Below, piece by piece: positions 47,130 to 53,986 of a DNA stretch of 64,000 bases. The stretch lies in the NCBI GenBank assembly GCA_001600615.1, contig BCKK01000003.1, forward strand, positions 570,500 through 634,499, given 5' to 3'. The position numbers and the translations under genes were made by a program. The notes beneath the pieces are model-generated. The model did no database searches. It saw only the letters and a program-made list of their open reading frames with translations, and was not told the DNA's origin. How positions within the stretch are numbered: position 1 is the stretch's first letter; each line of letters begins with the position of its first letter. The DNA comes from Dioszegia crocea (taxonomy: Eukaryota > Basidiomycota > Tremellomycetes > Tremellales > Bulleribasidiaceae).

Positions 47130-48632
47130 ATGAGACTGCAATTCGCCTCCTCCTTGATACTAGCTTCCGCCGCCGCCGCGCAATTCGTAGCGCCAGTGAC
47201 GGTATCGGCCACGCCTTCTTCCTCCGCGGCAACTTCCTCCCGGTCCCCTGGGTCCATCACCAGCGTCTCCACCGCATCTATCACTCTCGCCCCTCCTCCA
47301 GAATCCACAGGCTGTGTAGCCCACGGCGATCACTTCCACTGCGAAGGCCCCAATACGGCCTATACCGGGGCTCCCACCGCGTCCGGGACCGCTCTATCAG
47401 ACTCGTCGAGCTCGGGCGAATGTATCATCCATGTCGGACACACGTAAGTTTCATCACCCACAAAAAAGTCCTGCATCGCTGATCCCGCAGACATGGTGAT
47501 TGCTCAGCACAAGACCTGGCGTGCGGCGCCATCCTGACGGAAGCGTACAACATGCCCCTCCACATCGGCTCCATCTTCATCATCCTCGTCACTTCCGCCC
47601 TGGGCATTCTCATCCCCATGCTTTCCGGTTGGACACGCAGAGCAGACGGCAGTAAGATTGCAAGTGGTGATCCAGTCGCATTTGGGCGGAAAGCGGGCTT
47701 CTGGGCAAGCTTGTTCTTCCTTGCAAAGCACTTTGGAACTGGAATCATCATTTCCACAGCATTCATCGTATGTCTATCCCTGCTCCATTCGTGACTTATG
47801 GCTGACTCCTCAGCACCTCCTCTTCCACGGCTTCGTCATGTTTCAAAACGAATGTATCGGCGAATTGGCCTACGAATCCACCGCAGCAGCTATCGCCATG
47901 GCTGCAGCGCTCATCACTTTCCTCTTTGACTTCATCGGCAGTCGACTCGCTTCGCGCAAGACGGGCCATGTTGAGGGTCTGTCCCCCCAGAGCTCTGCAC
48001 CTGGATCTCCAGATCGCGAGAAGACGGGGGCTGGCTTCGTCCCCACTGACGGCGCCGGTGCGCACGGTCACGATTGCGGTCATGTCGACGCGGCATTCGC
48101 AGCGGAGGAGAGTTGGCGGGTGGCCCTACTCGAAGCTGGTATCATCTTCCATTCGTATGTCTGTCCCTCCGTGTCACCACGCCAAACCACACGCTAATCC
48201 TACAGCATCATGATCGGCGTCACCCTCGGCGCATCATCCGGCGCAGGCTGGACAACACTCCTCATCGTCATCTGCTTCCATCAATTCTTCGAAGGCGCAG
48301 CGCTTGGTGCCCGAATCGCTCTCCTATTCTGGATCTCAAAAGTCCGCGCCATCATCATGTCCACCGCCTTCATCCTCATCACCCCTATCGGCATCGCCAT
48401 CGGAATCGCCGTCCGCCAGGTATTCTCCCAGAATGGTAAAGCCAGCCTCTTATCCGTCGGGATCCTCAATGCCATCTCGGCCGGTATCCTGCTATACACT
48501 GCCTTCAAATTGCTTGCTTGCGACTTTGTTGATGGACCTCTGAGGCATGCTCCATTCAGTAAAGTCGGACCGGCAGTGGCGGCGCTCATTGTGGGTCTTA
48601 TTGGGATGAGCGTGTTGGGCAAGTGGGCATAG
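47130..48632 (+). CDS. ZRT1: ZIP-family zinc transporter with N-terminal Cys/His extracellular domain
   Basis: Plasma-membrane zinc importer, 452 residues from exons 47130-47443, 47491-47767, 47814-48154 and 48206-48632. Signal peptide MRLQFASSLILASAAAAQF, a Ser/Thr-rich ectodomain with CVAHGDHFHCEGP and CIIHVGHTHGDC motifs that look like metal-capture tails, then eight TM helices. The ZIP metal site is seen in TM4 (HSIMIGVTLG) and TM5 (HQFFEGAALGAR). The intracellular loop is His/Gly-rich (HGHDCGHVD). An in-frame Met at 47040 lies upstream but would bury the signal peptide, so 47130 is chosen. The partner gene PRA1 is divergent. The CxxH...HxC ectodomain motif resembles the PRA1 tail, suggesting zinc handover. 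Confidence 0.93.
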
Positions 48633-48867: not shown

Positions 48868-51800
48868 TCACCTAACCTCCTCCCCTTCCTCCTTTTCTCT
48901 CCGCGCCATCCACCCACCCACACCCTTATGCACCACCATCAAACCCAGCACAACTGGCAGATACCACAGACTGACAAAGAAGCACTTCTTGGCGGTCTTT
49001 TCCCCCACATCGACATAAAACGCCCATGCCGACTTGACAAACAACACATTGGGTATCAAAGTCGTTAGGCCGAATGACCAATCGACCGCGCCGGATGCCG
49101 GAGCAAGGACAGCCGTGAATGGTACGAGCAGCACTGCGTGTCTGAGAGATACGAGTGCGTTGAGGCGGGGGGAAAGGACGGAGAGCATCGGATAGCCCGA
49201 TAGGGCGTAATATGGCCGAATGAGATGTGAGAGGGCGTTGAAATGTGGGAATTGCCAGGAGAACAAGAGGGCAAAGAGGGTGAGTGGGACGAGGGGGTTG
49301 GGCGTTGTGGCGAGTGGAGAAGAGGGGGAGTGGAATTGAAGGGGTTGGGTCGATGTGGGCCATAATGATCCACCGGTGGCTGTCCAGCCCATGAGCGGTG
49401 TGATACCGCCGACGACTGCGCCTATCCAGGTATTAGACACTGAGAATCGCTTCATTGGCGTATAGATCGCAGCGTATAGCACGAGGTTGCCGAGGCCTAG
49501 GGCCGCAGTGGTGGGGTTACAGCCATGCCACAGGACTAGACCGCCAAGGAGGGTACAGACCACGCCGAACATTGCGGCGTGGAAGGGTGAGACTCGGCGC
49601 GCGACGAGGGGTCGTACGCGGGTCCGAGGTGTTTGCGCATCGAGAGGAGCTTCAAGGATCTGGTTGAATGTGTTCGCGGCGGCAGAGACCAGGAATGTGC
49701 CGACTGAAAGATTTAGGAGGAGGGGGATAGATAAGGGGAGGGGAGAGAGGGCAAGTCCGGTGGTCGCCGTAAGTGTCATGAGAATCGACAGGTTCCGTTT
49801 GGATAATTGAGAGTAAAGACCTATTCGGCGACGGAGCGTGAGAGGGGGGTTCGCCTTGTATGACTCGAGCGGGGCAGAAGGTGGACCTGGGGCAGGCAAG
49901 TCAAGGTCGGGAAAGGGGGGAGCAGTCAATCGACCGGCGGCAAAGACTGTCGATACCCGTTCCCTAGGCGCAGTATGCGCAGAAAAGAACGGACGGTGGA
50001 TAGCAGCGGTATGAGCCTGTCGTTTCGAGCCTGTCGATGTGAAGGGTGAAGGAGGTGCAGATTGGGATTTGGATGATCCGCGAGGTGGTGCAGCAGGTTT
50101 AGAGGGTACTTCCGATTCGGTGTGTGGTTCCGGGTCGTGGTGCTCCGTCTCTTCTGCGGCAGGGGGTGGGGGGTGATGTTCCTCCTCGTCCGTCTTTTCG
50201 GTAGGTGCGCCAATCTTGGACATTTGCCCATCTACCATCCGGCGGAATTTCCCATCTCGCCTTGAGAGTAACTCGCCGTATGATCCGTCCTCCACTACTT
50301 TTCCACCATCAAGGAGGACGACGCGGTCTGCTTGGGCAATGGAGGATAGACGATGGGCAATGAGGATGACGGTGATTTCGGAATTATCAAATAGGGCATC
50401 AAGCGCTGCGTTTACCTAAGACATCAGCACTGACACTATAAACAAAACATCCAGACCCAAGCGAACTTACCGCTCGTTCAGATTCTGAATCCAAAGCACT
50501 AGTAGCTTCATCCATCAACAACACGCTAGGCTCGCCGACCAAAGCTCTCGCAATAGCGATCCGCTGCCTCTGACCTCCACTCATTGCCGCCTTGGTAATG
50601 ACGGTATCATAACCCTGTGGCAACGCATCGATAAAATCACAATGGGCAACTTCAGCTGCGCGCTTGATTTCGTCGCGCGTAGCATTCGGATGTCCATAGG
50701 CGATATTCTCATGGATCGTACCTCCGAATAGAATTGGATCTTGGGGAACGACCCCGATTCTCGATCGCCATGATTCGGGTATAAAGCCGCGAATATCTTG
50801 ACCGTCGAGAAGGACTGTACCGGATGTTGGGTCGTAGAAACGTAAAAGGAGGAGTTGGATAGATGATTTGCCTGATCCGGAACCGCCACTGTTGTGTCAG
50901 CGCGGTCTCATGGTCGAGGGGGAAATTGAAACTTACACAAGAGCGACACATTCACCCTTTTCAATCCGGAGATTTAGGCCGTCAAGAACTTTAGCGTCCG
51001 GTCGGGAAGGGTAAGCAAAGCTGACGTCGCGCAACTCAATAGTTCCTCCTTTCGGCTCGGGTACAGCCTGGCCAGTCCCGAGTTTGATGGGTGACGATAA
51101 TGCGTGTAAACCGATGATACGCTGTGAAGCTCCGACACCCTTCATCAGACCGGTAAAGAACCCAGCGAGCGCTATCGTGTCAGCCGGAAGTTATCGCGGC
51201 AAGTTAACACCCAATTTGAGACTTACTATTCAAGGACCACTCAATCCAATTGACGTAAATGAACAGACTCGTCATATCCCCCACACTAATCTCTCCCCTC
51301 TTCACCAACACACCGCCATAGATCAACAGCCCAATCATCCCAAGATCTCCAGCTACCTCATTCGCCCCCTGAAATACGCCATTCGCGAATGTTTCCTTCT
51401 TCTGCAGACCATACACCTTGCCAACTCGACCAGCATATAACGCCTCTTCCGCCGGCTGGGTATTACTGGCCGTGACGGTCCGGTGGGCCGACAGACGCTC
51501 TTCGGCCAACTTGGACATATTGCCCATTGCCTCTTGCGTCCGGAGAGATAATCCGCGGATGAAGCGGCCGTAGAAGAAGGATCCGATCGAGATAGGAGGG
51601 ATAATCAAGAGCATGACGAGAGTGAGGGTGGGCGAGATGAGGTACATGGCCACGCAACCTGCTCCGGCGCCCAGGACAGCTTTGAGACCTTCGCCGAGAT
51701 TCTCAGATAGACTCTGGCCGACAATGGATGTATCTTGTCCTAGTCGGGATAAGGCATCTCCGACCCCGGCCGTCTCGATGTGCGAAGGTGGCATAGCGAG

Positions 51801-52574
51801 GTATTTTGCATATGTTTGATTTCTATTGTCAGCTCAGACTGTAAGCAGGACATACCTTATCCGCATGACTGTGCGTTGACCAGCCAACCTCAGACATATG
51901 CTCCGTCCCGAATTGGCCACGGCGCCAACGAGAAGAATACCAGCGAGCGCTATTGTGGCATGTTCCAATGGCAGACCGAACAGCTCGGTAGCTTCAGACC
52001 CAGGTGCGAAGAAATCGATAATCCGTCCGATGGCCCATGGTATTCCAAGATTCACACCAGTGGACACGACGAGGAAGGCGACGCCGGCTGTAAGAAGGGG
52101 CCATTGGGGTTTGGCCAAGGCGAGAAGGCGGAGGAGGGAAGCTGTATCGGGCGTCTTTTCGAGTTTAGGGGGTGAGGAAATGGCTGTGGTGGGTGGAGGT
52201 GTGGATATAGATGTGGATGGTGAGGGTGGTGGTGATGTACTGGCCGTAGCTGGTGTTTCGGCGGGAGAAATGGGGGGTTGGGGATTTGAATCTCTCACTC
52301 GGGGTTTATCTGGAGGTTCCGATGGGGGCGGACGAGAGACGTTTGAGTTGAAGCGGATGAACAGCCCGATAGAATTAGGATGTGGGTATCGGGCTGTACA
52401 TGGTACCGCACGCGATGCCAGTCCGGCACGAGGAGGATAGACGAATGTTGTTGTAGCGAATGTCCGGGCTAGCCTCGAAGGGCCTGCTTCTCCCAGGACG
52501 TGTCGGGCGGGCCTGTAAGCTGCGGGACGTATCTCCAGCACCCTGCCGAGAGCCTGGCCGTATCTAGCGGCCAT
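48868..52574 (-). CDS. MDL1-COX10: MDL1-like mitochondrial ABC half-transporter fused in frame to COX10
   Basis: One reading frame of about 1,160 residues from five exons. The N-terminal half has a basic, Arg/Ala-rich mitochondrial presequence (MAARYGQALGRVLEIRPAAY), a Pro/Ser-rich region, TM domain, then an ATPase domain with Walker A GGSGSGKSS, signature SGGQRQRIAIARAL, Walker B LLMDEATSALD and the switch His in LIAHRLSS. After RRMVDGQM no stop occurs: a linker of about 120 acidic, Pro-rich residues with a presequence-like stretch (RQAHTAAIHRPFFSAHTAPR) leads into protoheme IX farnesyltransferase with NTFNQILEAPLDAQ, RTRVRPL, YTPMKRFSVSNTWIGAVVGG and WQFPHFNAL. COX10 makes heme O for cytochrome oxidase; MDL1/ABCB10 relatives act in matrix peptide export and heme synthesis. 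Ends at 48868, tail to tail with the ZIP gene. Confidence 0.9.
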
Positions 52575-52873: not shown

Positions 52874-53986
52874 ATGGCTCGGCGGAACCATAAAGAACGA
52901 TCGCAGCCCGCCAATCGTCAGCGGCTCGGTCTGCTCGAGAAGCACAAAGATTATGTTCTTCGAGCGCGAGACTACCACTCGAAGCAGGACCGCCTGAAGA
53001 AGCTGAAGGAGAAGGCGGCATTTAGAAATAAGGATGAATTCTACTTTGGGATGGTCAAGGCGCAGACCAAGGGTGGAGTCGTGATCGGAGACCGAGGGAA
53101 TGAGGCGTTGGAAGTGGACGTCGTGAAAGTTTTGAAGAGCCAGGATTTGGGCTGGGTCAGAGTTCAGATCTCACAGGATGATAAGGTGGGTCTCAATCTC
53201 TGTGTAATGGCAAGTCAAGTGCTGATGGGCCAGAAAGTAGAAAAGCTTAGGAGAGAGCTCGAGGTTACTGCGCCAGCAGCGACGGCGGGCGAGTGGGATG
53301 CAGCTGCTGAGTTGGCCGAAGTTGAGAAATTGGCAGAGATGGGGGTGGTTATAAATCCTCAAGCACGAGCAAGTGGGTCGGGATCCAGCGGGAAGAAGAA
53401 TAAGGGGAAGGGGAAGGCGGTAGATGGCGGTCATGTGTTGTTTGTGGACGGACGGGAAGAGTGTGAGTTGATTTGCTACTTTGGAATCGCAGGTAGCTGA
53501 TATACTAGTTGAGGGGTATGGCGACAAGTCCGCTGTGGTCGATACGATGGAAGAGACGACAAAAGAGGTGGATCTGGGATGGGAGACAGTAGTTCCGAAG
53601 AGCAAACGGAAAAGGCCTACAGCGGCACCTGTCGCTCAGCCTGTCCAATCTGCAGAAGAAATGGCAGAAGAAGCCAGAGTGAGTTGATGTTCTGCGGACA
53701 TCAAAATCTCTGGACTGCTGTACGATACCTATGGGCGCCGCTGACGTTTCAGCAAACGCGACTCGACCTCCTTACATCACTTTCCTCCCACCTCGCACGC
53801 TTACGCCTATTACACCAAGCTGAATCCCGGCTGGAACAGACCAAAGGATTGATGGGTAAAGGTGCGGCGAGGAAGGTGCAGCAGCATGGCTGGGTAGAGG
53901 ACTCGAGTTTGCCCGAAGATAGGAACGGGGAACAGCGGAAGTGGGTCGGAAAGGACTTTAAGTGGAAAGCCGAGCGTAAGCGATAG
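52874..53986 (+). CDS. UTP11: U3 snoRNP / small-subunit processome protein UTP11
   Basis: Nucleolar factor for 18S rRNA maturation. 314 residues from exons 52874-53185, 53234-53462, 53509-53678 and 53753-53986; the sum is divisible by three. Conserved N-terminus: [52 protein letters not shown]. Later segments are [25 protein letters not shown] and the basic C-terminus [11 protein letters not shown]. The first intron (48 nt) has no stop in frame, so unspliced mRNA would add 16 residues. It diverges from the MDL1-COX10 gene and is tail to tail with RPB9. Confidence 0.93.

Follow-up and report, generated by a model that had tools for sequence, protein, structure and literature searches.

How would a cell handle a single gene that reads, in one frame, through a mitochondrial ATP-binding cassette (ABC) transporter and on into COX10, the putative heme O synthase? 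The question is raised by a locus on contig BCKK01000003.1 of the basidiomycete Dioszegia crocea, within a stretch of 64,000 nucleotides (positions 570,500 to 634,499; hereafter the window), where the original prediction had placed an in-frame fusion of an MDL1-like transporter and COX10 at 52574-48868. These coordinates proved right: the frame is open, Pfam recognizes both halves, and 71 other proteins carry the same join. We report here this fusion, a tree of its COX10 part that fits a single gain, and a conserved block in a linker modelled with low confidence. The explanation that we favour, and hold to be fairly probable, is a tandem mitochondrial precursor, an MDL1/ABCB10-type half transporter followed by COX10, that would be cut internally.

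In the spliced model the locus is a single minus-strand gene (52574-48868) of five exons and 1171 codons whose only stop stands at its end, and all four introns (33, 55, 48 and 55 nucleotides, nt) run from GT to AG. Its parts are as follows.

51856-52574, minus strand: exon 1, which carries the start codon, a mitochondrial-type leader at the N-terminus (residues 1 to about 130) and the first part of the ABC membrane domain (spliced model; leader composition; predicted local distance difference test, pLDDT, below 50 at residues 1-140 of a Kwoniella homologue)
51227-51822, minus strand: exon 2, ABC membrane domain (spliced model; PF00664, residues 163-430)
50937-51171, minus strand: exon 3, end of the membrane part and start of the ATPase domain (spliced model; PF00005 from residue 501)
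50471-50888, minus strand: exon 4, ATPase domain with the motifs that we take to be Walker A, Q loop, signature (MSGGQ) and Walker B (motif positions; PF00005)
48868-50415, minus strand: exon 5, in which one 515-codon open frame covers the last part of the ATPase domain, the linker and the whole of COX10 with its stop (open reading frame list; spliced model)
48967-49773, minus strand: UbiA prenyltransferase domain of COX10, heme O synthase (Pfam; heme O synthase models)

The junction between the halves thus sits within an uninterrupted exon, all 515 codons of which are open from the ATPase domain to the COX10 stop. Openness of the frame carries little weight by itself, because an alternative frame is also open over much of the junction (101 codons, 50231-49926). 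The COX10 frame has two ATG codons near the junction, at 50238 and 50223, which belong to the conserved end of the ABC half; the next one, at 49779, is already inside COX10. The COX10 of the fused gene is the sole one detected in the genome; a second copy elsewhere was rejected as a possibility, the other UbiA matches, all on C5, reading as a COQ2-like protein (a name that we assume). Elsewhere in the genome, the top-scoring ATPase match is 49% identical over 137/139 residues (shorter pieces reach 61-66%), and hence no second close MDL1 was found there.

Pfam places ABC_membrane (PF00664) at residues 163-430 of the 1171-residue product, ABC_tran (PF00005) at 501-647 and UbiA (PF01040, 162 bits) at 871-1139, behind an N-terminal leader of basic composition. 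The ABC half therefore has one membrane domain followed by one ATPase domain, the half-transporter layout that it shares with human ABCB10 and yeast MDL1, to which COX10 is not known to be appended. When solved structures were searched with phmmer, ABCB10 (436.9 bits) stood above ABCB9 (299.1), ABCB8 (294.1-296.8) and TAP1 (267.1); the list is headed by full-length P-glycoprotein types, each of which matches in two stretches (272.9 and 260.4 bits for the best), and Atm1/ABCB7 was not among the best 60 of 586 matches. Human ABCB10 also holds ranks 1-4 (40-41% identity) in a Foldseek search with the predicted model of the homologue P0007. ABCB10 is thus the best-scoring half transporter by sequence and, for P0007, by fold, and the ABC half appears nearer to it than to the other half transporters compared. 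Judged on its sequence, the first unit is an ABCB10/MDL1-type half transporter, for which inner-membrane location and transport are predicted.

The second half resembles the COX10/CtaB/CyoE heme O synthases in its UbiA domain and in its score against TIGR01473 (the NCBIfam heme O synthase model), which at 216.2 exceeds the required 210.3; against NF003349, likewise a model of heme O synthase, it reaches 157.5 and falls short of the 246 needed, and a sequence search of solved structures with COX10 returned none at E 0.001. NTFNQ, DAQTPRTR and SWQFPHFNALS, to which we presume a catalytic role, are all present in the window COX10. The second unit is, on this evidence, a complete COX10 and putative heme O synthase, with farnesyl transfer to heme B as its predicted reaction; it differs from those synthases in having neither its own start codon nor its own leader. 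Among complete fused proteins (at least 1000 residues, n=28), the four ABC motifs and DAQTPRTR occur in 28/28; the remaining COX10 motifs, three in number, are found in 24, 25 and 26 of them.

Relatives were collected with residues 690-1171 as query (58 proteins), pooled with the best 120 of 387 matches to the COX10 part, which gave 168 COX10-bearing rows (P0001-P0167 and the window). All 52 proteins from P0001 to P0052 contain both the ABC ATPase and UbiA, at 55-67% identity and with 98-100% of the query covered. Twenty-four of the 52 have named sources (Kwoniella, Cryptococcus wingfieldii, C. depauperatus, Cryptococcus sp. DSM 104549, Naematelia, Kockovaella, Uapishka, Vanrija, Cryptotrichosporon and Cutaneotrichosporon), all of which we assign to the Tremellales or Trichosporonales. 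Within the full set, COX10 is preceded by an MDL1 tail in 72 rows (window included) and by more than 30 residues of other sequence in 79, among them P0053-P0056 and the bacterial-type P0058; the other 17 rows are truncated or otherwise unclassified. Every fused row is at least 71.0% identical to the window COX10 core, a region in which only P0060 (96.0%), P0071 (79.3%) and P0086 (70.5%, over 166 residues) reach 70% among the 79 tail-less rows; P0081, P0091 and P0080 exceed 70% among the 17 set aside. The whole join is kept in relatives, and we therefore take the fusion as real. Databases hold the fused proteins mostly under enzyme-only or transporter-only names, and many entries of about 1,120-1,230 residues named 'protoheme IX farnesyltransferase' include a transporter as well.

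A COX10 tree of 54 rows chosen from the 168, rooted on the Ustilaginomycotina rows P0053 and P0055, gathers 31/31 fused rows in one clade (support 97/93), where P0060 and P0071 join them. The sister of this clade is P0082, which lacks the MDL1 tail (100/99), and the Naganishia, Phaffia and mushroom rows fall outside; the tail is absent from the Naganishia and Phaffia COX10. The fewest changes on this tree number three, which fits one gain of the fusion plus two departures from it; the gain would be placed in the ancestor of the Tremellales and Trichosporonales. On the ABC tree the MDL1 part of the fused clade sits on a long branch (1.75 changes per column); on the COX10 tree, built from other rows, the stems to that clade measure 0.22 and 0.57. 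The transporter may have evolved fast at the time of fusion; alternatively, Mrakia, which supplied the unfused row, may not be the right counterpart.

What lies between the two halves bears most directly on how the product would be used. The original prediction had described a stop-free linker of about 120 codons at 50223-49855 that holds a presequence-like stretch; we count 123 codons without a stop, and a motif in 50049-49975 is kept in most relatives. The linker divides as follows.

49855-50223, minus strand: linker, 123 codons (spliced model; alignment; residues 725-799 of the homologue P0007 at pLDDT below 50)
50050-50223, minus strand: first part of the linker, acidic at its start and variable among relatives (relatives' linkers; composition)
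49975-50049, minus strand: presequence-like block SPFTSTGSKRQAHTAAIHRPFFSAH, a likely internal processing site by prediction ([KR]R..H[ST]; short motifs in unfused leaders)
49887-49956, minus strand: intron candidate of 70 nt, GT to AG, with donor GTATCG and acceptor CCCCAG; frame-breaking and probably unused (intron scan of the linker)

Compared as protein, the relatives' linkers run in one order: the conserved ABC end FR.MV..Q, an acidic spacer that differs in sequence and length, and then the basic block; the stretch from TV..AA up to the COX10 core, 3' of the block, is conserved too. The motif [KR]R..H[ST] is present in 68/72 linkers (shuffled mean 0.15, maximum 2), and the remaining four hold near variants by eye. 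It lies 45-92 residues from the ABC end, within linkers that measure 99-203 residues from the ABC end to the COX10 core. Net charge averages +3.3 over the 28-residue block (range -1 to 6) and -2.8 per 28 residues in the spacer, and 56 of the 68 blocks hold no acidic residue or a single one. A second short motif, [YF]F[ST], occurs in 52/72 linkers and in all ten Tremellomycete-like leaders of unfused COX10 (shuffled mean 0.64, maximum 4; leaders chosen by eye), and in 5 of 67 other unfused leaders, where shuffling gives a mean of 5.8. The likeness can be seen by setting the unfused leader RRHSTAASALPLTYFTSARH of P0095 against the fused linker QRRSNHTQAISRPFFTAHPTP of P0023.

An AlphaFold model of the fused Kwoniella homologue P0007 (1178 residues, 67 aligned rows) reached a mean pLDDT of 76.3, with 840 residues at 70 or more, and a predicted template-modelling score of 0.54, which leaves the relative placement of the halves unfixed. 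Stretches of at least three residues below 50 are confined to 1-140, 725-799 and two short pieces of the ABC half within 293-310. Residues 725-799 comprise the spacer and the block QKRQAHT...RPFFSAQ (768 to about 798) and lie between two better-modelled halves.

From these features we propose that the precursor would be sent to mitochondria by its N-terminal leader and that both halves would enter the inner membrane; on the topology we expect, the linker would face the matrix. There the matrix processing peptidase (MPP) would cut the basic block between about QKR and RPFFS, and trimming peptidases might then act as well; COX10 would be set free and the transporter left with an acidic tail. This basic block would probably be the former presequence of COX10, whose start codon would have been lost at fusion. 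A cleaved polyprotein is preferred over a permanently joined protein because of the conserved basic motif, the similar motifs of unfused leaders, an apparent split of the gene in Cryptococcus (see below) and the tandem precursors known from fungi; the cleavage itself is predicted.

Several observations tell against this proposal. Two to four acidic residues are found in 12 of the 68 blocks, and the block of the window is weakly amphipathic (moment at most 0.3 in the sequence windows printed). The strict Icp55-type motif R.[FLY]S[ST] occurs in only 6/72 linkers (shuffled mean 0.73, maximum 4); the N-terminal leaders of complete fused proteins carry it in 18 of 26 cases and [KR]R..H[ST] in none of the 26. 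With a profile of the linker block, P0071 and P0060 score and no other unfused leader beats shuffled sequences, so that descent of the block from an old presequence leans on the short motifs, and its homology to unfused COX10 leaders is best called suggestive. Low pLDDT in the linker may partly reflect the thin alignment there and, the rows being related, the motif and linker counts are not independent events.

Composite precursors of this kind have precedents in yeasts. Rsm22-Cox11 was reportedly described as a tandem protein by Khalimonchuk in 2006, and Arg5,6 is said to have been treated as a polyprotein by Friedl in 2020. The products of Arg5,6 are soluble matrix enzymes. Etp1 of Schizosaccharomyces pombe is a Cox15-ferredoxin protein with Cox15 first; on that make-up it is like the fused gene in placing a heme A pathway enzyme within a composite mitochondrial precursor, and unlike it in the order and the partner, COX10 being second and joined to a transporter here. 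Rsm22-Cox11 of S. pombe is reported to be a tandem protein cut after import (PMC12375894, PMC8847149), and Arg5,6 of Saccharomyces cerevisiae a two-enzyme precursor cut internally by MPP (PMC8847149, PMC12585908); Arg5,6, Atp25, Etp1 and Rsm22-Cox11 are treated together as composite precursors in which targeting-like sequences and MPP sites lie internally (PMC8847149). On this description, Rsm22-Cox11 resembles the fused gene in being one precursor with a cytochrome oxidase assembly factor second, and differs in that its first unit is a matrix protein, whereas that of the fused gene is a polytopic ABC transporter whose release by cutting is predicted. Arg5,6, on the same footing, likewise holds two proteins in one precursor, though these are enzymes of the arginine pathway and not two inner-membrane proteins. 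By analogy, we suggest that the fused gene works like a tandem mitochondrial precursor, and that its novelty would lie in joining two polytopic inner-membrane proteins. Among openly licensed PubMed Central papers, judged by title and start of abstract, none on an MDL1-COX10 fusion was found.

One lineage within the fused clade bears on whether the halves need to stay together. P0071, a 485-residue COX10 named Cryptococcus bacillisporus that stands for 66 sequences, is nested within fused Cryptococcus on the COX10 tree (96/86, 99/85). P0168, a 725-residue Cryptococcus ABCB10 that stands for 49 sequences and was found, with P0169, among the best 120 of 338 matches, ends inside the acidic spacer and, on the ABC tree, clusters with fused Cryptococcus (100/98). 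Because both fall among fused Cryptococcus, this lineage looks secondarily split. The start of P0071, MISRKGLGFAAN, resembles that of P0168, MLSRQGLGLAAN, in a similar 14-residue leader. In an anchored test the two agree at 8 of 13 positions, a value reached by 0 of 200,000 random draws, with 4 for the best unfused COX10 control and 6-7 for the MDL1 leaders of other fused proteins against P0168; the figure is flattering, as the test was chosen after the similarity had been spotted by eye. Local alignment of the two leaders scores 49, which 1 of 2000 shuffles reached, the best control leader scoring 45. An MDL1-leader profile that includes P0168 gives the P0071 leader 12.5 (controls 4.8, shuffles 8.9), and one built without P0168 fails to single it out, at 5.8 bits against 6.7 for the highest of 78 controls and 13.1 for the highest of 1000 shuffles. 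Should the resemblance be genuine, the leader of the split COX10 would be a copy of that of the transporter, which suggests a split by duplication of the fused gene, each copy losing the other half; alternative splicing of one leader exon may also account for the shared leader.

The strongest rival to the cleaved precursor, which we consider unlikely, is an uncut bifunctional protein in which transporter and heme O synthase stay joined at 1:1 dosage and a heme-linked exporter sits beside COX10. The fusion has lasted across two orders, and complete fused proteins keep the conserved motifs of both halves. The closest solved fold of P0007, moreover, is that of ABCB10, and according to PMC7140478 ABCB10 is among the partners of ferrochelatase and the active site of Cox10 faces the matrix, which together make a functional link between the two plausible. 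Against this stand the linker itself, 99-203 residues long and of low model confidence apart from conserved blocks, one of them presequence-like; the equal dosage that a cut precursor would provide just as well; and the halves that seemingly occur apart in one Cryptococcus lineage, where a permanent join thus seems unneeded. A permanently bifunctional protein is possible, and on balance nothing beyond the long conservation of the fusion favours it. It is quite doubtful, too, that COX10 stays attached to the ABCB10-type transporter in at least part of the pool, which would couple heme-related export to heme O synthesis and would have been undone in one Cryptococcus lineage by duplication with reciprocal loss.

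An internal promoter or alternative splicing might instead give COX10 a message of its own, the read-through then being a join made in the gene model; we judge this improbable. Neighbouring genes can indeed be merged by gene finders, and two annotations point that way. P0060, from the nearest named relative Dioszegia hungarica (94% identity to the window), is annotated as a 385-residue COX10 alone, starting MSRPFFSAH, and P0169 of Tremella mesenterica is an ABC-only model, marked partial, that ends soon after the ABC part. The P0060 start would, however, leave little import leader, and some environmental proteins encoded on short contigs carry the join as well; because one of these, P0059 (85% identity), does so, we read P0060 as a cut gene model. 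In 58 of the 68 linkers that hold the motif, the stretch leading to it from the ABC end is free of methionine, which makes separate translation with the block at the N-terminus unlikely. Splicing fares no better. It had been claimed that the linker holds no donor of the GTAAGT/GTGAGT type, and the scan for introns did return a single candidate that the claim had passed over, with donor GTATCG (49956-49887); the substance of the claim survives, since removal of 70 nt breaks the frame and supplies no COX10 start codon, and the candidate was rejected as a route to a separate COX10. The upstream frame that would thus be spliced to COX10 is interrupted by two stops, one near 50099 and one just 5' of the donor.

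An assembly or sequencing artefact in the window genome, including an error that hides a stop between the halves as the original prediction had allowed, has next to no chance of being the explanation: nothing was found in its favour, and it is ruled out by the same join in 71 other proteins.

COX10 also ends a different composite protein. P0053 (Ustilago loliicola), P0054 (environmental) and P0055 (Violaceomyces) carry CCDC90-like, TauD and COX10 units in 1457-1525 residues, and R.[FLY]S[ST] occurs in each of their two linkers in 3/3 cases (0/3000 shuffles as high; the motif was chosen after reading the linkers). This Ustilaginomycotina protein resembles the fused gene in having COX10 last and presequence-like junction motifs, and is taken as a separate tandem because the partners differ. 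This tandem and the apparent Cryptococcus split together suggest that COX10 may have been recruited to the end of such precursors more than once. P0056, an 886-residue environmental COX10 with about 580 residues upstream without a Pfam match, is perhaps a further COX10 fusion.

Other features of the locus can be noted briefly. Intron 1 (51823-51855) has just 33 nt, about the lower size limit of spliceosomal introns. The ABC signature region (50550-50610) reads VITKAAMSGGQ, shorter than the usual ABCB10-type G..G..LSGGQ, and the basidiomycete rows P0169 and P0175 likewise look short. Upstream, about 300 bases away, lies a divergent Utp11 gene (52874-53497, likely start 52874); downstream is a convergent ZIP zinc transporter gene (47483-48632), whose last open frame ends at 48632.

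To our knowledge, few mitochondrial tandem precursors have been described, and we know of little on the fungal role of the ABCB10/MDL1 transporter. The fusion ties this transporter to heme O synthesis, and a join of two polytopic inner-membrane proteins across two fungal orders raises the question of how import would handle a second presequence placed midway in a membrane protein.

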